From Nocardia asteroides (GTDB lineage Bacteria > Actinomycetota > Actinomycetes > Mycobacteriales > Mycobacteriaceae), in assembly GCA_019930625.1 (NCBI GenBank), contig CP082844.1, forward strand, positions 2,852,001 to 2,916,000: 64,000 nucleotides of DNA, given 5' to 3'. The notes under the pieces are model-generated. The model was given only the letters and a program-made list of their open reading frames with translations, had not been told where the DNA came from and searched no databases. Within the stretch, counting starts at the first letter, position 1, and every line of letters starts with the position of its first letter. Of the stretch, positions 42,783 to 51,926 are shown in pieces. The translations under genes were made by a program, and so were the position numbers.

Positions 42783-44252
42783 ATGAGTCTGCTTGTGCCC
42801 CAGTCGATGGACGAGGTCAACGACACGGTCCGCCAGGCGCGGGCCACTTGGGCGTGGCGCGCGCAGCGTGGTGCCGCGCGGTTGGTCGCGCGGTATCCGG
42901 TGCGGGTGCGTCCGCTGGCCGATCCGCCGCCGGGCAGCGGACTGAAACCGGTGCTCGGCGACTTCGGGCTCCCCGGCATCGGCTACACCCTGCACGCGCT
43001 GGCCGATCCGATCCAGTTCGCGCGCGCGAGATTCGATCGCCTCGGCCCGGTGCAGTGGTTCGGCATGCTCGGTCGGCGGATGGTCACGATCGGCAGCCCG
43101 GAGGGCTACGAGGCGGTGATGCTGGACCGGAACAAGGTGCTGTCGGCGCAGCGGGCCTGGGAGTGGCTGATCGGCCCGTTCTTCCACGGCGGACTGTTGC
43201 TGCGCGACTTCGACGACCACCTCTACCATCGGCGTATCATGCAGCAGGCGTTCACGCGTCCGCGATTGATCGGCTACCTGGACATGACAACGCCGCGGAT
43301 CACCCGCGGCATGGCGCGGTGGGAGCCCGCCGACGACTTCCGCGTCTACCGCGCGATCAAGAAACTGCTGCTCCAGCAGGCCACCGAAGTCTTCGCGGGC
43401 GCCGAGCTCAGCGAGGACGCCGCACGGTTGGAGCGTGCCTTCGAGGACGCGGTGCGCGGTGGCGCCGCGCTGATCCGGGCGAACGTGCCCGGCGGGGTGT
43501 GGGCCCGCGGCGTGCGCGGGCGCCGGGTGCTCGAGAAGCACTTCCGCCGTGAGTTGCCCGCCAAGCGCGCGGGCGGCGGCAACGACCTGTTCAGCGTGCT
43601 CTGCCGGGCGAGCACCGCCGAAGGCGAGACCTTCACCGACAGCGAGGTGGTCGAGCACATGATCTTCGTGATGATGGCCGCCCACGACACCAGCACCATC
43701 GCCGCGTCCATGCTCGTCTACGAGCTCGGCAGGCATCCCGAATGGCAGGAGCGGCTGCGCGCCGAATCGCTCGCGCTGGGCAAGCCCACGCTGGACTACG
43801 ACGATCTCGACCGCCTGCCCTCGCTCGACCTCGCGTTCAAGGAGGCGCTGCGGGTCTACTCGCCGGTGGCCCAGCAGGTCCGCCAGACCATCGCCGACAC
43901 CGACATCCTCGGCTACTACTTGCCGAAGGGGACGTTCATCCTCTGCGGCACGTACGGCCTCATGCGCACCGAGCAGTACTGGCACGACGCCGACACCTTC
44001 GACCCGGAGCGTTTCGCCGACCACCGCCGTGAGGACAAATCGCACCGCTTCGCGTGGGCGCCCTTCGGCGGCGGCGCGCACAAGTGCATCGGCCTCTACT
44101 TCGGCGGCATGACGGTCAAAGCCGTTGTGCACCAGATGCTGTTGCGGTATCGCTGGAGCGTGCCGGACGGCTACCGGATGCCGCTGGTCGCCGGGACGGG
44201 TCCGGTGCCTGCCGATGGACTGCCCATCCGGCTGGAGCGGATCGACCGATGA
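42783..44252 (+). CDS. cytochrome P450 monooxygenase
   Basis: A 489-residue P450, longer than most actinobacterial members. The I-helix oxygen-activation motif is AAHDTST, the ExxR motif lies in FKEALRVYSP, the PERF motif in FDPERFADHRR, and the haem loop is FGGGAHKCIGLYFG with Cys435. No signal peptide or membrane anchor. It is probably redox-partnered by the ferredoxin whose start overlaps its stop (ATGA). The substrate is unknown; the general sequence style recalls sterol or lipid-oxidising CYP136/CYP51-like enzymes, which I cannot confirm. It is regulated by the divergent TetR. Confidence 0.93.
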   Translation: MSLLVPQSMDEVNDTVRQARATWAWRAQRGAARLVARYPVRVRPLADPPPGSGLKPVLGDFGLPGIGYTLHALADPIQFARARFDRLGPVQWFGMLGRRMVTIGSPEGYEAVMLDRNKVLSAQRAWEWLIGPFFHGGLLLRDFDDHLYHRRIMQQAFTRPRLIGYLDMTTPRITRGMARWEPADDFRVYRAIKKLLLQQATEVFAGAELSEDAARLERAFEDAVRGGAALIRANVPGGVWARGVRGRRVLEKHFRRELPAKRAGGGNDLFSVLCRASTAEGETFTDSEVVEHMIFVMMAAHDTSTIAASMLVYELGRHPEWQERLRAESLALGKPTLDYDDLDRLPSLDLAFKEALRVYSPVAQQVRQTIADTDILGYYLPKGTFILCGTYGLMRTEQYWHDADTFDPERFADHRREDKSHRFAWAPFGGGAHKCIGLYFGGMTVKAVVHQMLLRYRWSVPDGYRMPLVAGTGPVPADGLPIRLERIDR

Positions 44253-44434
44253 GAATCGTCGCCGACCGCATCGTGTGCGCGGGGCACGGCATGTGTGAAG
44301 CACTGGCGCCCGACCTGTTCCGGGTCGGTGGCGACGGAATCGTCGCGCCGCCGGAGACCGTCGAGCCGTCGGAGCGGGAACTTCTGGAGCTGGTCGTCGA
44401 CAGTTGCCCGGTCGGTGCGCTGCGCCTGGCCTGA
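44249..44434 (+). CDS. [3Fe-4S] ferredoxin, P450 partner
   Basis: A 61-residue ferredoxin (MRIVADRIVCAGHGMCEALA ... DSCPVGALRLA). It has three cluster Cys (C10, C16, C53) and lacks the fourth, the pattern of [3Fe-4S] ferredoxins that donate electrons to actinobacterial P450s. Its ATG overlaps the P450 stop, giving coupled translation. Confidence 0.92.
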   Translation: MRIVADRIVCAGHGMCEALAPDLFRVGGDGIVAPPETVEPSERELLELVVDSCPVGALRLA

Positions 44435-45907: not shown

Positions 45908-46351
45908 ATGCAGTTTGAAATCGTCGAGCGGGACGAGACGTGGGTTGCCGGGCTGCCGGTGCGCAGCCCCAAACGCGCGCTCGGGGAACTGCGTGACCGC
46001 GATCTGGAGGCCGCGTGGGCTGCGGTGTTGCACCAGGAACTCGGCGGGCCGCTGGCCAGCGCCTACACCGATTACACCGGGGAGCTGGGCACCTACAACA
46101 CGCAGATCGTCGGCTACCAGTGCTCCTCCTTCGACGACGTCACCCGCGGTCACTTGGTCGCCCGGTTGCCGCGCGGCGCCTACGCCCGGTTCTCCTCGGT
46201 CGGTAACTTCCCGCAGGTGATGACCGACCTGTGGACGCAGATCGCCTACGCCGAGGAGCACAACCAGATCAAGCGCACCTATACCGGCGATTTCGAGTGT
46301 TATCCGCACGCCTACAAGATCGATCTGTACTTGGCGGTAGACGCGCGATGA
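45908..46351 (+). CDS. stand-alone GyrI-like effector-binding domain protein 1
   Basis: A 147-residue protein starting MQFEIVERDETWVAGLPVRS and continuing ELGTYNTQIVGYQCSSFDDV, GHLVARLPRGAYARFSSVGN and FECYPHAYKIDLYLAVDAR. This is the AraC effector-binding (GyrI-like/Cass2) fold that binds cationic or drug-like ligands, but no DNA-binding domain is attached. ATG 45908 matches the domain start. Its stop overlaps the next gene's ATG. The pair sits near UDG without other obvious partners. Confidence 0.75.
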   Translation: MQFEIVERDETWVAGLPVRSPKRALGELRDRDLEAAWAAVLHQELGGPLASAYTDYTGELGTYNTQIVGYQCSSFDDVTRGHLVARLPRGAYARFSSVGNFPQVMTDLWTQIAYAEEHNQIKRTYTGDFECYPHAYKIDLYLAVDAR

Positions 46352-46782
46352 GCTATGCGATCGTGGTGCGTGCCGAGGCGATCTACGGCGGGCTGGTGGT
46401 TCCGCGCGTGCGCCCGAGCTTCAAGGTCAGCAACAGCGACCTGATCGACTTCCTCAAGGACCGGCTGCGTGACCGGGCGGGCGAGGATCGTCCGATGTAC
46501 ACGGTGTACGTGCCGGACCCGGCCGGGAACTACAACGCGGTGGTCTGCTTCGAGTACCCCTCCCCGGACGTCGTGCCGGTGGGCGATGTCCTGGTGCGGG
46601 TGCCGAAAGGCGTTTATGCCCGCTTCGCGCCCAACGGCGACTATCACGATCCGGTGGAGGACGCCTGGGCGCAGGTCGATGACGCGACGGCGTCCGCCGA
46701 GATCACTCGCGCCTATCGGGAAGAAATCGAGATCTGGCACGGGCCGGAGTCGGTCGAGTTGTTCATTTCGATCCTCGTTTAG
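46348..46782 (+). CDS. stand-alone GyrI-like effector-binding domain protein 2
   Basis: A 145-residue paralogue-like protein starting MSYAIVVRAEAIYGGLVVPR, with VPVGDVLVRVPKGVYARFAP and ESVELFISILV near the end. It repeats the [KP]G.YARF signature and the C-terminal hydrophobic strand of the previous protein, so the two may be ancient duplicates that form a heterodimer. The ATG overlaps the previous stop (ATGA). No output domain is visible. Function is unknown; ligand sensing or sequestration is the likeliest role. Confidence 0.7.
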   Translation: MSYAIVVRAEAIYGGLVVPRVRPSFKVSNSDLIDFLKDRLRDRAGEDRPMYTVYVPDPAGNYNAVVCFEYPSPDVVPVGDVLVRVPKGVYARFAPNGDYHDPVEDAWAQVDDATASAEITRAYREEIEIWHGPESVELFISILV

Positions 46783-47038: not shown

Positions 47039-47812
47039 ATGACTGTGGATCTGATTGCAGTCGTGCCGAGGAACTCCCGTGGGCGGGGAGTGCGGCGGTA
47101 TTACGACGCGCAATCCGAGTGTGCGTTCTTTGTCTCCGAACCGGGTGTGTCACCGGAGCTCTGGCACCGGTATCTCGGCGGGGCACTGGATGTTTACCGG
47201 CGCTTCGGCGTCGAACACGCACTCGAATACGACACGGTCGCCGACGGCGAATCGACGTCGCTGTTCTTCGCCGCGCTCGACGCCGACGGCGACATGGTCG
47301 CCGGGGTGCGGATGCAGGGGCCCTACACCGACGCGGAGCAGGCGCACGCGCTGGTCGAGTGGGCCGGTCATCCGGGCGCCGAGGAGGTGCGCCGGATGAT
47401 CGCCGATCGGATACCGCACGGGGTGGTCGAAGCCAAGGGGGCGTGGGTCGCGCGCGACGCGGCCAAGCGAGCCGAGTTGGGCGCCGCGATCTCGCGCACC
47501 GTGCTGCACGGCGCGCGCCTGCTCGGCGCGCGCTACGGCTTCGCGACGGTGGCATCGTTCACCGTGGCCCGTCATTCGGCCTGCGGGGCGGTGCCCGCCG
47601 AGCACATCCCTTCGGTGCCGTATCCGGACGAGCGCTACCAGACCGTTCCGCTGTGGTGGGACACCCGCGGTTACGCCGTGTTCGCCGAGGAAGCGCAGCG
47701 GTCGCTGACGCACGCCGAACAGGACGCGCTCGGCCTGCCGGCCGCACGTCCGCTCGACACGCGGTGCGCGATCGGCTGTGGGACGGAGGGCCGGCGCGGA
47801 TATGGGCGATGA
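47039..47812 (+). CDS. acyltransferase-like (GNAT superfamily-type) protein in the Rv1355c-like operon
   Basis: A 257-residue soluble protein that starts with AGTAGGAACAAC before ATG 47039. Features include SLFFAALDADGDMVAGVRMQ (a beta-strand pair typical of GNAT and autoinducer-synthase-like folds), EAKGAWVARDAAKRAELGAA and VLHGARLLGARYGFATVASF. No signal peptide. I infer an acyl/aminoacyl transferase of N-acyl amino acid synthase or GNAT type. It overlaps the ThiF-nitroreductase gene by 11 bases, so the two belong to one translation unit. Confidence 0.65.
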   Translation: MTVDLIAVVPRNSRGRGVRRYYDAQSECAFFVSEPGVSPELWHRYLGGALDVYRRFGVEHALEYDTVADGESTSLFFAALDADGDMVAGVRMQGPYTDAEQAHALVEWAGHPGAEEVRRMIADRIPHGVVEAKGAWVARDAAKRAELGAAISRTVLHGARLLGARYGFATVASFTVARHSACGAVPAEHIPSVPYPDERYQTVPLWWDTRGYAVFAEEAQRSLTHAEQDALGLPAARPLDTRCAIGCGTEGRRGYGR

Positions 47813-49937
47813 CCCCAACCGAGTAGCGGACCACCGGCCGCTGATCCTCGACTCCACCGATCCGGAAGATGCCCGGATACTCGCCGGGTTGCGCGCGGAC
47901 CCGCACATCGAATTCCTCGATCTACGTGCGTCGTTGCACGTGGAGTACGAAAGAATGGTCGCCGCGCCGGATATCGCGGAAGGCCCGGAGGCGGATCGCT
48001 GGATCTACTATCCGTGGCGCGCGACGGTGGTCGGATTGCCGGGGCCGCGTACTTTCCGGATGATTCGGCTGGACCGCAATCGGAACAAACTGACCAGAGC
48101 CGAGCAGGATCGCTTGGCCGGACAAACGATCGGGATCATCGGACAAAGCGCGGGGCACGCTATCGCGCATCTGCTCGCACTCGAGGGCGTTTGCGGTGAA
48201 TTACGCTTGGCCGACTTGGATGAAATCGAGTTGTCCAATTTGAACCGGGTTGCGGGAACGCTGTTCGACGTCGGCGTCAACAAAGCGGTGGTAACCGCGC
48301 GCCGTATTGCCGAGTTGGATCCCTATCTGCCGGTACAGGTCTTCGAATCCGGCGTCGACGAGAATTCGGTGGACGAGTTCTTGGCGGGGCTCGCGATCGT
48401 GGTCGAGGAATGTGATTCGCTCGATATGAAACTGGTGGTTCGCGAGGCGGCGGCCCGGCACCGCGTTCCCGTCCTGATGGAGACCAGCGATCGGGGTTTG
48501 CTGGATGTGGAGCGTTTCGATCTGGAACCTCAGCGCCCGGCGTTTCACGGATTACTCGGCGACGTCCGCGCACAGGACTTGCGCGGGCTGACTTCGAGGG
48601 AGAAGGCCCCGTTCGTGGTGAAGCTGCTCGGCGCTGCCGCATTGTCACCGCGGCTGGGCGCGAGCCTGGTCGAGGTCGGCGAGACGGTGACCAGCTGGCC
48701 GCAGCTGGCCGGGGACGTCACGCTCGGCGCCGCGAGCGTGGTCGCCGCCGTCCGGCGCATCGGACTGGGGTGGAAGCTGGATTCCGGTCGCGTGCGGGTC
48801 GACGTGGAACAGCATCTCGACGAGTTGGCCGATCCGCCGCCGAACGACGAGCCGGTGTGGGCCGAAGCGACGCCGGAGGCCGTTGCGGGGCCCGTCGACA
48901 GTGTCCTGGCCTGCGCGCAGCGGGCGCCGTCCGGCGGAAACATGCAGCCCTGGTCGCTGCGAGCCGCAGCGAGCGACATCTTCATCGAGCTGGCGCCGGA
49001 GCACAGCACCGCGATGGATATCGGCTATCGCGGCAGCGCCGTCGCGCTCGGCGCGGCCGTGTACAACGCGCGGGTCGCCGCGGCCGCGCACGGGATTCTC
49101 GGCCCGCACGAGTTCATCGAGGGTGCGCCGGGGTCCGGCCTGCTCGTCGCGCGCCTGCGGCTGGGAAACGACCGGAGCGCCGAAATGGCCGCCGACTATC
49201 CCGCCGTATTGCGGCGCGAGACCAACCGCAGGGTCGGCACCGGGGCCAGACTGGCCGACGGGGTACTCGATGCCCTCGCCGAAACCGCCGAATCGGCCGG
49301 CGCGCACGTGCGTGCGGTGGTGGACCGGCGGGGCATCGAAGCAGCTGCGCATTTGCTGAGCGATTCCGATCGAATCCGCTATCTCACGCCCCGGTTATAC
49401 GAGGAAATGCTCGCCGAAGTTCGTTGGCCGGACGACGACCCGGAGACCGGGATCGATGCCCGCAGCCTGGAACTGACCGACGACGAGTGGGCGGCATTCG
49501 AGATCACCACCCGCGCCGACGTCATGGCGCAGTTGCGCTCCTGGTCGGGTGGTTCGGCGCTGGGGAAATACACCGGTGACCGGGTGCGGTCCAGCTCGGC
49601 CATTCTGGCGGTGACGTTCGAGGCGACCGACCCGCGATTGACCGACTACGCGGAGGCGGGCGCGGCGGTCGCGCGGGTTTGGGTGCAGGCCGAGCGCCTC
49701 GGATTGTGTGTGCAACCGATTTCGCCGGTATACCTCTACGCCCGACGCCCGGCGGAACTTGCTGCGATTTCCCCCGACTTCACGGATACACTAGCGTCAC
49801 TTCAGGGCCGTTTCCTGGACCTGCTGGAAGTGCCTGAGCATGAGACCATGGCGTTGGTGCTTCGCCTGAGCTACGCCTCCGCCGCCACCGTACGCAGCAG
49901 GCGGCGTCCGGTGCTCGGTGTGGACACCAGTAGTTAG
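47802..49937 (+). CDS. ThiF/E1-like domain fused to nitroreductase domain (Rv1355c-like)
   Basis: A 711-residue protein. After a leader of about 90 residues, residues 105-330 form an E1/ThiF adenylation domain: GIIGQSAGHAIAHLLALEG and the LADLDEIELSNLNRVAGT motif, but no CxxC zinc pair. Residues 365-710 form a nitroreductase-like FMN domain (QRAPSGGNMQPWSLRAA ... ALGAAVYNARVAAAAHGILG). It corresponds to M. tuberculosis Rv1355c (MoeY), also near the GGDEF-EAL gene Rv1354c. Substrate unknown. It overlaps the upstream gene by 11 bases and the GGDEF gene starts 17 bases downstream, so it is the middle gene of an operon. Confidence 0.88.
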   Translation: MGDDPNRVADHRPLILDSTDPEDARILAGLRADPHIEFLDLRASLHVEYERMVAAPDIAEGPEADRWIYYPWRATVVGLPGPRTFRMIRLDRNRNKLTRAEQDRLAGQTIGIIGQSAGHAIAHLLALEGVCGELRLADLDEIELSNLNRVAGTLFDVGVNKAVVTARRIAELDPYLPVQVFESGVDENSVDEFLAGLAIVVEECDSLDMKLVVREAAARHRVPVLMETSDRGLLDVERFDLEPQRPAFHGLLGDVRAQDLRGLTSREKAPFVVKLLGAAALSPRLGASLVEVGETVTSWPQLAGDVTLGAASVVAAVRRIGLGWKLDSGRVRVDVEQHLDELADPPPNDEPVWAEATPEAVAGPVDSVLACAQRAPSGGNMQPWSLRAAASDIFIELAPEHSTAMDIGYRGSAVALGAAVYNARVAAAAHGILGPHEFIEGAPGSGLLVARLRLGNDRSAEMAADYPAVLRRETNRRVGTGARLADGVLDALAETAESAGAHVRAVVDRRGIEAAAHLLSDSDRIRYLTPRLYEEMLAEVRWPDDDPETGIDARSLELTDDEWAAFEITTRADVMAQLRSWSGGSALGKYTGDRVRSSSAILAVTFEATDPRLTDYAEAGAAVARVWVQAERLGLCVQPISPVYLYARRPAELAAISPDFTDTLASLQGRFLDLLEVPEHETMALVLRLSYASAATVRSRRRPVLGVDTSS

Positions 49938-49953
49938 CGCGATCGGAGACAAT

Positions 49954-51822
49954 GTGCCACGGCGGACACTCGACTCGTTGGTGACCCAGGTCGCCTCTGA
50001 GCTCATGGGTGTGGACGCCACGACGATGGTCGCCGCCACCGAACGCGTGCTCGCGCACTTGGTCGAGTACTTCGACGTGGACTTCAGCTACGTGCGCCAC
50101 ACCGACCGTGAACGTCGAGCAACCGTGCTCATCGCGGAGTGGCCGCACCGGCAGCACGTGCCGGATCCGGACCCGCTCGGCGTGATCTACTTCGACGGCG
50201 CCGACCCGGTGTTCCGTGCGCTGGAGAACGCGACCGAGCCGATGGTCGCCCGTCCGACCCCGGAGTTCGCCGATTACCAGGAGACCGTCCGCCGGGGGTC
50301 CGGCATCGCCGGAGTGACCTCGGCGGCCGTGCCACTGCTGTCGCGGGGCGAGCCGACCGGCGTGCTCGGGTTCGTCAAGTCGGGTGACCGGGAGTGGAGC
50401 ACCCGCGAACTCAACGTGCTCAAAGCCATCGCGGCGCTCTTCGCGCAATTGCAGGCGCGGGTGGTCGCGGAGGAACGTCTCCGATATATCGCGCTGCACG
50501 ACGACCTGACCGGCCTGGCGAACCGGCGAGCGCTGCTCGAGCACATGGAAGAGCGATTACGTTCCGGTAGCCCCGGCCCGGTGGCGGCCTTCTTCCTCGA
50601 CCTGGACCGCTTGAAAGCTCTCAACGACTTCCTCGGTCACACCGCCGGGGACAACTTCATCCGCACGTTGTCGACGCGATTGCGGGAGAACCTCGACCCG
50701 AACGACATGATCGCCCGACTAGGCGGCGACGAGTTCGTCATCGTGCCCGCCAAACCGATGGACGCGGTGGCCGCCGAATACGAGGCCAACCGGATCCAGC
50801 AGTTGATCGCCCGGCGCGTCACCGTCGGCGGCGAGTCCGTCAGCCGGGGAGCCAGCGTCGGAGTGGCGCTGGGCATCCCCGGTGAGACCACTGTCGCCGA
50901 CGTGCTGCGACGCGCCGATCATGCGCTGTTGTCGGCGAAGTCGGGCGGCGGCAACGGCGTCGCGGTGTTCACCGACACCATGCGCGCCCAGTTCGAACTC
51001 CAGGACGACGTGGAGCTCAACCTCCGCGGCGCGGTGTCGGACGGCTCGCTGCTGCTGCACTACCAGCCCGAGGTGGACCTGCGCACGGGTCGCATCGTCG
51101 CGCTGGAGGCGCTGGTCCGCTGGCTGCACCCGACCAGGGGGCTGCTGCCGCCCGCCGCGTTCGTCACCGTCGCCGAAGCCACCAACCTGGCCGGTGAGCT
51201 CGGACGCTGGGTCATCCGGTCGGCGTGCGCGCAGTTCGCCGAATGGCGCAGGCGGGGTATGGCCGGCAACGTGGTGATGCGGATCAACGTGTCGCCGGTG
51301 CAGTTGGTCAGCCTCGATTTCGTCGAGCGCATCGAGGACATCCTTCGCCTGTTCGGCATCGACGGCAGCTCTGTGTGCCTGGAGATCACCGAGCACGTCG
51401 TGGTCCAGGATCTGGCCCGCACGCAGGTCACCCTGCGCGGATTGAAGCGGATGGGCGTGCAGATCGCCATCGACGACTTCGGTACCGGCTACAGCTCGCT
51501 GTCGCATCTGAAGGCGCTGCCGGTGGACGCGGTGAAGATCGATCGGGGGTTCGTGCAGCGGCTCGGCGCCAGCACCGACGATCTGGCCATCGTGAAGTCC
51601 ATCATCGGCTTGGCCGGCTCGTTCGGGCTGGGCGTCGTCGGAGAGGGCGTCGAGACGGCGGTCGCCGCGCGGACGCTGGTCGGCCTCGGCTGCTACCGCG
51701 CGCAGGGCTTCCTGATCGCGCGGCCGATGCCCGCCGAGCAGGTCGAGGAGCATCTCGTGGCAGGCCGGATCCCGCTCGATCTGGATCTGCCCCGCGCCGG
51801 GCGCGGCTTGCCCGCGCACTGA
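49954..51822 (+). CDS. GAF-GGDEF-EAL diguanylate cyclase/phosphodiesterase (Rv1354c-like)
   Basis: A 622-residue protein that makes and/or degrades cyclic di-GMP. A GAF-type sensor covers about 1-175, including VARPTPEFADYQETVRRGSG. The GGDEF domain covers about 185-335 with intact RLGGDEFVIV. The EAL domain (about 350-600) has ALEALVRW, INVSPVQL, ITEHVVV, DDFGTGYSSL and EGVET, all as in active phosphodiesterases. The RxxD I-site before GGDEF is changed (DPND), so product inhibition there is unlikely. I chose GTG 49954 with GGAG 5 bases upstream. It is the third gene of the operon with the ThiF fusion. Confidence 0.93.
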   Translation: MPRRTLDSLVTQVASELMGVDATTMVAATERVLAHLVEYFDVDFSYVRHTDRERRATVLIAEWPHRQHVPDPDPLGVIYFDGADPVFRALENATEPMVARPTPEFADYQETVRRGSGIAGVTSAAVPLLSRGEPTGVLGFVKSGDREWSTRELNVLKAIAALFAQLQARVVAEERLRYIALHDDLTGLANRRALLEHMEERLRSGSPGPVAAFFLDLDRLKALNDFLGHTAGDNFIRTLSTRLRENLDPNDMIARLGGDEFVIVPAKPMDAVAAEYEANRIQQLIARRVTVGGESVSRGASVGVALGIPGETTVADVLRRADHALLSAKSGGGNGVAVFTDTMRAQFELQDDVELNLRGAVSDGSLLLHYQPEVDLRTGRIVALEALVRWLHPTRGLLPPAAFVTVAEATNLAGELGRWVIRSACAQFAEWRRRGMAGNVVMRINVSPVQLVSLDFVERIEDILRLFGIDGSSVCLEITEHVVVQDLARTQVTLRGLKRMGVQIAIDDFGTGYSSLSHLKALPVDAVKIDRGFVQRLGASTDDLAIVKSIIGLAGSFGLGVVGEGVETAVAARTLVGLGCYRAQGFLIARPMPAEQVEEHLVAGRIPLDLDLPRAGRGLPAH

Positions 51823-51926
51823 GATCACGGCCGCATCCGCCGGTGGGCGGCTGGTTGTCCTTTTCTTTCACGGCCGTTCACCCACCGTTGGTCGCCGGTA
51901 ACCCGATCCGCTGCAACATCGGCCAC

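Follow-up and report, generated by a model that had tools for sequence, protein, structure and literature searches.

The closest described counterparts of the locus analysed here are the TrzA-TrzS pairs of Mycobacterium tuberculosis (Rv1356c-Rv1355c), Mycobacterium smegmatis and Rhodococcus jostii RHA1, for which synthesis of N-acyl tryptazolones was reported in December 2025 (J Biol Chem, PMC12856293). The present analysis concerns a trzA-trzS-like gene pair and an adjoining gene for a GAF-GGDEF-EAL enzyme in Nocardia asteroides, contained in a stretch of 64,000 nucleotides (contig CP082844.1, positions 2,852,001 to 2,916,000; hereafter the window) that lies at 2.85–2.92 Mb in the 7.4-Mb genome. 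In the relatives, L-tryptophan is acylated by Rv1356c (TrzA) using short acyl-coenzyme A (acyl-CoA) substrates, after which TrzS carries out an ATP-dependent cyclisation and then an O2-dependent desaturation to the N-acyl tryptazolone; the D217A substitution in M. smegmatis TrzS abolishes cyclisation, and R540A and Q651A impair the oxidase half (PMC12856293). The adjacency of trzAS to rv1354c and rv1357c is mentioned in one sentence of that paper, in whose text the terms “GAF” and “c-di-GMP” do not occur.

Two other oxazolone systems use the same enzyme types. TyzACB (Rv2336, Rv2338c, Rv2337c), which makes tyrazolone, likewise combines an acyl synthase, a ThiF cyclase and a flavin-dependent oxidase, but the ThiF and oxidase parts are separate genes (fused in the window), the substrates are Tyr/Phe and the ThiF protein falls in another subcluster (PMC10404671); “GGDEF” and “cyclic di-GMP” have 0 occurrences in the text of that paper. 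OxzAB of Pseudoalteromonas rubra consists of two genes, for an acyl synthase and a ThiF-oxidase fusion, but gives Tyr/Phe products and has its ThiF in subcluster 2, as opposed to subcluster 1 for TrzS (de Rond 2021, as described in PMC12856293). As to the third gene, Rv1354c has both cyclic-di-GMP synthesis and degradation activity in vitro and rescues long-term survival of the M. smegmatis mutant (PMC2994820), and its M. smegmatis counterpart MSMEG_2196 (DcpA, MSDGC-1) is the sole GGDEF/EAL enzyme of that species (PMC12632254).

A probable trzA-trzS-dcpA operon in Nocardia asteroides

The window locus is most likely a trzA-trzS-dcpA operon and a new member of the published kind. The three genes, with the domains and residues mapped on them, and the Cass2/GyrI-like gene pair described below are on the forward (+) strand. 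The trzA-like gene (47039–47812) encodes an acyl-CoA-dependent N-acyltransferase of amino acids, with L-tryptophan as the predicted substrate, and overlaps by 11 bases the trzS-like gene (47802–49937, ATG start), which encodes a ThiF cyclase fused to a flavin-dependent oxidase; 16 bases further on, preceded by GGAG, the GTG start of the dcpA-like gene (49954–51822) follows. This coupling, on which an original prediction from the window sequence had based a joint operon, held up in the reading-frame check. Among the extracted relatives, 62 of the 78 trzA-trzS pairs that share a strand and lie no more than 400 bp apart overlap, and between trzS and its partner the median gap is 10 bases (93 pairs on one strand, up to 1 kb apart), these gaps being approximate as start codons were picked by position and stop codons partly omitted. 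Co-transcription, proposed at the outset, has been reported for the M. smegmatis counterparts MSMEG_2199 to MSMEG_2196, along with a monocistronic MSMEG_2196 message (Bharati 2013, cited in PMC5741613); MSMEG_2198, listed as a “ThiF family protein” (PMC5656591), is taken here as the trzS of M. smegmatis. A consensus scan returned no sigma-70-type promoters, a consensus that does not cover the promoters of this organism. Terminator-like sites numbered seven, compared with 3.0 in shuffled sequence, two of them directly 3′ of the dcpA-like gene (51839–51860). No cyclic-di-GMP or other riboswitch was detected at the locus, the sole Rfam match up to E = 1 being a chance microRNA hit (28 of 60 bits).

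The window TrzS is a single fusion protein of 711 amino acids (aa) that matches the NF005901 “Rv1355c family protein” model with 913 bits (cut-off 476). As originally predicted, it carries the ThiF motifs GQSAGH and DLDEIELSNLNR and no CxxC zinc site, any CxxC being present in only 2 of 124 aligned family members, and the Pfam scan gave both a ThiF adenylation domain (PF00899, E = 3.9e-20; residues 91–226, 48072–48479) and a nitroreductase-fold domain (PF00881, E = 1e-7). The latter is a flavin-dependent oxidase (desaturase), placed at about residues 368–704 (48903–49913) by a match to NF047509 below the family cut-off. Three catalytic residues likely have counterparts in the window: Asp205 (48414–48416; 124 of 124 aligned sequences) would correspond to the cyclisation residue Asp217, Arg526 (49377–49379; 123 of 124) to the desaturase residue Arg540 and Gln638 (49713–49715; 99 of 124) to Gln651 of the flavin mononucleotide (FMN) site. 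This mapping relies on spacing through locus L100, the nearest relative of M. smegmatis among the loci, in place of the M. smegmatis sequence itself; the spacing of Asp, Arg and Gln in L100 TrzS is identical to that published. The closest TrzS relatives, from N. abscessus, N. araoensis and N. asiatica, are 89–90% identical.

The window TrzA gave no Pfam or NCBIfam match. Its predicted fold, however, is that of a GNAT/N-acyl amino acid synthase and matches FeeM and acyl-homoserine-lactone synthases, in agreement with the earlier description as a GNAT/autoinducer-synthase-like protein. TrzA shares 33–44% identity with the aligned non-Nocardia members. Of the 80 named loci defined below, 53 have TrzA immediately 5′ of TrzS in the same orientation and 16 have it at another place in the locus; in the other 11 it was not found. 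The association with the fusion extends well beyond this strain.

The third protein is a full GAF-GGDEF-EAL enzyme, as had been read from the sequence, with a GAF sensor domain (approximately 49963–50463; PF01590, E = 4.4e-9; GAF-fold model, predicted local distance difference test score (pLDDT) 94.6), a GGDEF diguanylate cyclase domain (50491–50955; PF00990, E = 3.9e-34) and an EAL phosphodiesterase domain (51019–51726; PF00563, E = 1.5e-70; closest solved chain 5yrp_A). The GGDEF, EAL and DDFGTGY motifs are intact; in a 129-row family alignment, GGDEF/GGEEF is kept in 125 rows, EAL in 124 and DDFG in 127. The L100 third-gene protein is 98% identical over the EAL domain to PDB 5yrp, which we take to be M. 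smegmatis DcpA, is about 58% identical to the window enzyme and is part of the same quick tree of 82 rows, and Mycobacterium-type genomes (genus g2) contain full-length matches at 49–61% identity. Judged from these comparisons, the window enzyme belongs to the same gene family as M. smegmatis DcpA, shares its architecture and its position 3′ of trzS (L100 has trzA-trzS-dcpA in a row), and differs in sequence, a response to guanosine diphosphate (GDP) being reported for DcpA. Compared with TrzAS of the published species, the window has the same gene order, the acyl synthase and ThiF-oxidase fusion, the Asp/Arg/Gln residues and an adjoining cyclic-di-GMP gene (rv1354c in M. tuberculosis); it differs in being a Nocardia member with a predicted product, in a Cass2/GyrI-like gene pair on the 5′ side and in lacking an EAL-only Rv1357c-like gene beside trzA.

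Linkage of trzS to the GAF-GGDEF-EAL gene

Co-occurrence was counted in two sets, in both of which related genomes are treated as independent. A search with the window TrzS gave 152 loci, of which the best 80 form the named set, which therefore leans to near relatives; L027, L038 and L080 were set aside as the locus ends too early, and L048, where the start of the partner is visible at the locus end, was counted as near. Of the 77 assessable loci, 74 have the orthologous GAF-GGDEF-EAL gene no more than 6 kb from TrzS, immediately 3′ on the same strand in 61 and elsewhere in 13. These linked cases come from Nocardia, Mycobacterium/Mycolicibacterium, Rhodococcus, one Pseudonocardiales bacterium and six Acidimicrobiaceae. 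As to the two Nakamurella loci set aside, L080 shows the partner's start 3′ of trzS before the locus ends, and L038 has no partner in the 1.6 kb 3′ of trzS and the end of a family member on the 5′ side. With the same criteria for all genes (33% identity, half length), six other window neighbours were recovered in 0–3 of the 54 non-Nocardia named loci, whereas TrzA was recovered in 41 and the third gene in 45.

The second set, an order-level sample of 298 genomes, contained 44 near-full-length trzS copies after removal of 13 of 57 rows (split genes or stand-alone ThiF) and, for the partner, of 8 of 72 rows from six genomes (E above 1e-110, GGDEF-EAL part only). The partner lay within 10 kb of 40 of the 44 copies, being less than 300 bp downstream in 34, 324 bp away in one and 2.6–5.8 kb away in five. 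By genome, both genes were present in 39, trzS only in one, the partner only in 12 and neither in 246.

Non-orthologous GGDEF proteins beside other TrzS-type cyclases

The pairing with cyclic-di-GMP enzymes recurs with proteins that are not orthologous to the window enzyme. Genus g3 (37 genomes) has two kinds of TrzS-type gene, a full-length trzS and a stand-alone ThiF. The full-length trzS has the orthologous partner less than 300 bp downstream in 27 of 28 copies and a second GAF-GGDEF-EAL family member within 6 kb in 13 of 28 (e.g. L116:4215–7918); both genes were found in 28 genomes (trzS of G306 being split over contigs), the partner only in three and neither in six. The stand-alone ThiF amounts to 31 copies, spread over 28 genomes; the three examined in detail are 50–52% identical to the ThiF half of the window TrzS. 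At 30 of the 31, a membrane GGDEF protein not orthologous to the window enzyme is encoded no more than 1.2 kb away in the same orientation, the remaining copy beginning 521 bases from a contig start. About five hydrophobic helices were predicted by a simple hydropathy count in the three membrane proteins examined. By genome, this second pair was present in 28 of 37 and absent as a whole in eight, and G331 had the GGDEF protein only; this is a weak match (38%), and a second full-length trzS copy without the usual partner lies 1.1 kb from it. Five more distant ThiF proteins of the genus lie on contigs without the GGDEF protein (four) or 2.4 Mb from it (one). With 16–19 GGDEF genes in 4–5.6 Mb (three g3 genomes), roughly 1–1.5% of genes are estimated to have one within 1.2 kb by chance, and conserved position inside one genus is partly common descent.

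In family f4, two trzAS copies lack the usual partner, one in G003 (L120) and the other, a second copy, in G017 (L130). Each has a GGDEF protein encoded near trzA, at distances of 0.6 kb and 5.3 kb; the two proteins are orthologous to each other (70% identical), and one shows a GAF match below the Pfam cut-off. Five f4 genomes hold 11–34 GGDEF genes each, so that the 5.3-kb case alone means little. Using our own profiles, an additional GGDEF gene was detected at all six Acidimicrobiaceae loci and at six mycobacterial-type loci (L036, L042, L044, L062, L067 and L098). Within about 8 kb or to the contig end, no GGDEF gene was found at eight loci of another ThiF type (L145–L152; four Nocardia, four f12), near a divergent ThiF-oxidase copy of 34% identity (L139) or near the second trzS copy of G191 (L103).

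Proposed pathway and alternative explanations

By homology to the chemistry of the relatives, TrzA would N-acylate L-tryptophan from acyl-CoA, the ThiF half of TrzS would activate the carboxylate with ATP and close the oxazolone (azlactone) ring, and the oxidase half would desaturate the product with O2 to an N-acyl tryptazolone. The third enzyme would make and hydrolyse cyclic-di-GMP and be functionally tied to this pathway, either by reading the product or the state of the pathway, the GAF domain or contact between proteins being the simplest routes, or through a cyclic-di-GMP output that acts where tryptazolone acts. Taken as a whole, a trzA-trzS-dcpA operon for tryptazolone synthesis with a tied cyclic-di-GMP enzyme appears a likely explanation of the locus. 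Conversion of an N-acyl amino acid to an oxazolone is very probable, and tryptophan as the substrate is somewhat less likely than that. A functional tie of any kind is probable on the comparative genomics, i.e. the linkage, the non-orthologous GGDEF partners and the loss of other neighbours. The original prediction had linked acyl, adenylation and reduction chemistry to cyclic-di-GMP output in an uncharacterised pathway: the link is supported by the comparison (74 of 77 loci, 40 of 44 copies), the “reduction” step gives way to oxidation, and the pathway has since been characterised in M. tuberculosis, M. smegmatis and R. jostii, whose TrzA/TrzS make N-acyl tryptazolones (PMC12856293).

Several observations weigh against this explanation. 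Tryptazolone was undetected in M. tuberculosis itself (PMC12856293), deletion of MSMEG_2196 left nitrogen-dependent aggregation unaltered (PMC12632254), and which amino acid and chain length the Nocardia pair uses is a prediction. Linkage is not function and much of it may be common descent; the orthologous partner was not seen in three of the 77 assessable loci (L061, L064, L087) and was missing near four of the 44 trzS copies, and the partner occurs without trzS in 12 of 298 genomes (11 if G152, whose trzS is interrupted by contig ends, is taken to have it) and in three of the 37 g3 genomes. GDP has been described as an inhibitory ligand of the DcpA GAF domain (review PMC8846402). No GAF or EAL match was obtained in the three g3 membrane GGDEF proteins examined; a GAF-ligand model therefore cannot cover all cases, and the sensor there would be the membrane part, or the tie would run via cyclic-di-GMP itself. 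These same GAF-less partners favour a functional tie.

Part of this evidence would suit a shared operon without shared function, in which the cyclic-di-GMP enzyme travels with trzAS under its own promoter and responds to nucleotides such as GDP, tryptazolone being a separate stress lipid. Consistent with it are the start site of its own that MSMEG_2196 has in addition to the monocistronic message (PMC5741613), the GDP binding of the DcpA GAF and the enzymes found apart from trzS. The non-orthologous GGDEF proteins adjoining other TrzS-type cyclases and the loss of most other window neighbours outside Nocardia make this explanation unlikely. We regard as comparably improbable a flow in the reverse direction, with cyclic-di-GMP from the third enzyme controlling production or release of tryptazolone: the same linkage evidence applies and acyl-tryptophan is found mostly outside cells (PMC12856293), but none of the Rfam families with which the locus was tested gave a cyclic-di-GMP riboswitch, and no PilZ domain was present in the nine scanned proteins of and around the operon.

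The Nocardia pair might also perform the same reactions on a different amino acid or with another chain length, giving another acyl oxazolone. TrzA is only 33–44% identical to its aligned non-Nocardia relatives, the chain length differs between species and M. tuberculosis TrzA also acylates phenylalanine in vitro; against this, the three homologue pairs from M. tuberculosis, M. smegmatis and R. jostii gave tryptophan-derived oxazolones only, in cells (PMC12856293). The window TrzS, moreover, falls within the same equivalog model (NF005901), and a change of substrate is judged rather improbable. E1-like activation of a peptide, a protein tail or a molybdopterin carrier (Rv1355c bears the label “MoeY”), to which the ThiF/E1 fold would point, is extremely unlikely in view of the missing CxxC and of the absence of carrier-protein domains from the nine scanned locus proteins (very small open reading frames not searched for carriers). 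The activity published for the relatives is on a small molecule (PMC12856293), and the suggested peptide-modifying role is unsupported, since the carboxylate activated in the relatives is that of N-acyl-tryptophan.

Within the preferred explanation of tryptazolone synthesis tied to cyclic-di-GMP, more specific proposals are tentative. The neighbouring cyclic-di-GMP synthase might conceivably sense a TrzAS metabolite directly, but this is doubtful. TrzAS together with whichever GGDEF neighbour it has (GAF-GGDEF-EAL, membrane or other) could possibly form a dedicated small-molecule-to-cyclic-di-GMP signalling module in mycolic-acid bacteria and more distant Actinomycetota, and the signal of such a module might, with similar reserve, be N-acyl tryptophan or tryptazolone, structurally similar to an acyl-homoserine lactone and the product of an enzyme with that synthase fold. 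If true, this module would provide mycobacteria with a signal-and-receptor pair of a kind they are said to lack. BDSF-type signals are made by other enzymes. RpfR/BDSF signalling, in which a cyclic-di-GMP enzyme senses an acyl signal through a domain of its own, is a precedent, differing in its PAS sensor and fatty-acid signal (PMC8846402). M. smegmatis has no GGDEF/EAL enzyme besides the counterpart of the linked one, so an effect of tryptazolone on cyclic-di-GMP there should pass through this enzyme.

The role of bacterial N-acyl oxazolones has been called a major unresolved question (PMC12856293), and the role of cyclic-di-GMP in mycobacterial biofilms is described as unclear, with no quorum-sensing system described in mycobacteria (PMC12632254); the linkage, recurring with non-orthologous enzymes, joins these two questions. 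It is surprising that tryptazolone-type chemistry so faithfully keeps a cyclic-di-GMP enzyme alongside, sometimes an unrelated one. No paper linking tryptazolone to cyclic-di-GMP beyond the adjacency sentence was found in a search outside which most subscription papers fell, and as far as literature searches show, the linkage frequency and its repetition with non-orthologous enzymes are new observations.

Neighbouring genes and other observations

Upstream of trzA lie genes for a Cass2 effector-binding protein (45908–46351; PF14526, E = 8.8e-26) and, overlapping it, a second Cass2/GyrI-like protein (46348–46782; PF14526, E = 4.8e-10). Each is present at 25 of 26 Nocardia loci and at 3 of 54 other named loci, all three Rhodococcus, and the Cass2/GyrI-like genes of genus g3 are located away from the trz locus; the pair was therefore excluded from the core of the module. 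A close homologue was detected in 13 of the 298 genomes; each of these has a TrzS-type ThiF match, but they belong to only three related genera. The pair (45908–46782) could act as a binder or destroyer of the reactive oxazolone.

Further upstream, a cytochrome P450 gene is followed by a short open reading frame that looks ferredoxin-like by eye (42783–44434), the P450 being present at 12 of the 26 Nocardia loci and at none of the other 54. In some mycobacterial loci a cytochrome P450 gene adjoins trzS, and in some an S-adenosylmethionine (SAM) methyltransferase gene does (L055:8155–10598; L077:3621–5960; L103:10105–11550), perhaps for tryptazolone tailoring; “P450” and “methyltransferase” do not occur in the text of PMC12856293.

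GAF conservation was considered as a test of product sensing in Mycobacterium-type genomes, where the GAF/EAL identity ratio was 0.82 for unlinked enzymes (n = 19) and 0.94 for linked ones (n = 55), relatives being treated as independent, L165 (another family, unlinked) left out and L141 (trzS split by contig ends) placed with the linked. The ratio was not taken as proof because the 19 unlinked enzymes come mostly from one clade and a second clade (L170, L171) behaves in the opposite way. The third-gene homology is split over two reading frames in two Nocardia genomes (L135:10138–11995; L025:7977–10253), by frameshift or sequencing error. In Acidimicrobiaceae, the GAF-GGDEF-EAL frame is open for about 140 residues 5′ of the usual GAF start (L068:8291–11969) and the gene overlaps a second GGDEF gene that comes after it, to which L068 and L075 add a further conserved gene, that of L068 having no Pfam match. 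Among the loci of the other ThiF type, a protein of about 600 aa with ThiF in its second half is encoded by a gene overlapping one for a KAS III (FabH-like) enzyme at L147:7212–10123 and L148:7024–9800, at a locus without a GGDEF gene, and at L150:1648–3566 the gene for a 430-aa ThiF protein overlaps a GNAT acetyltransferase gene.

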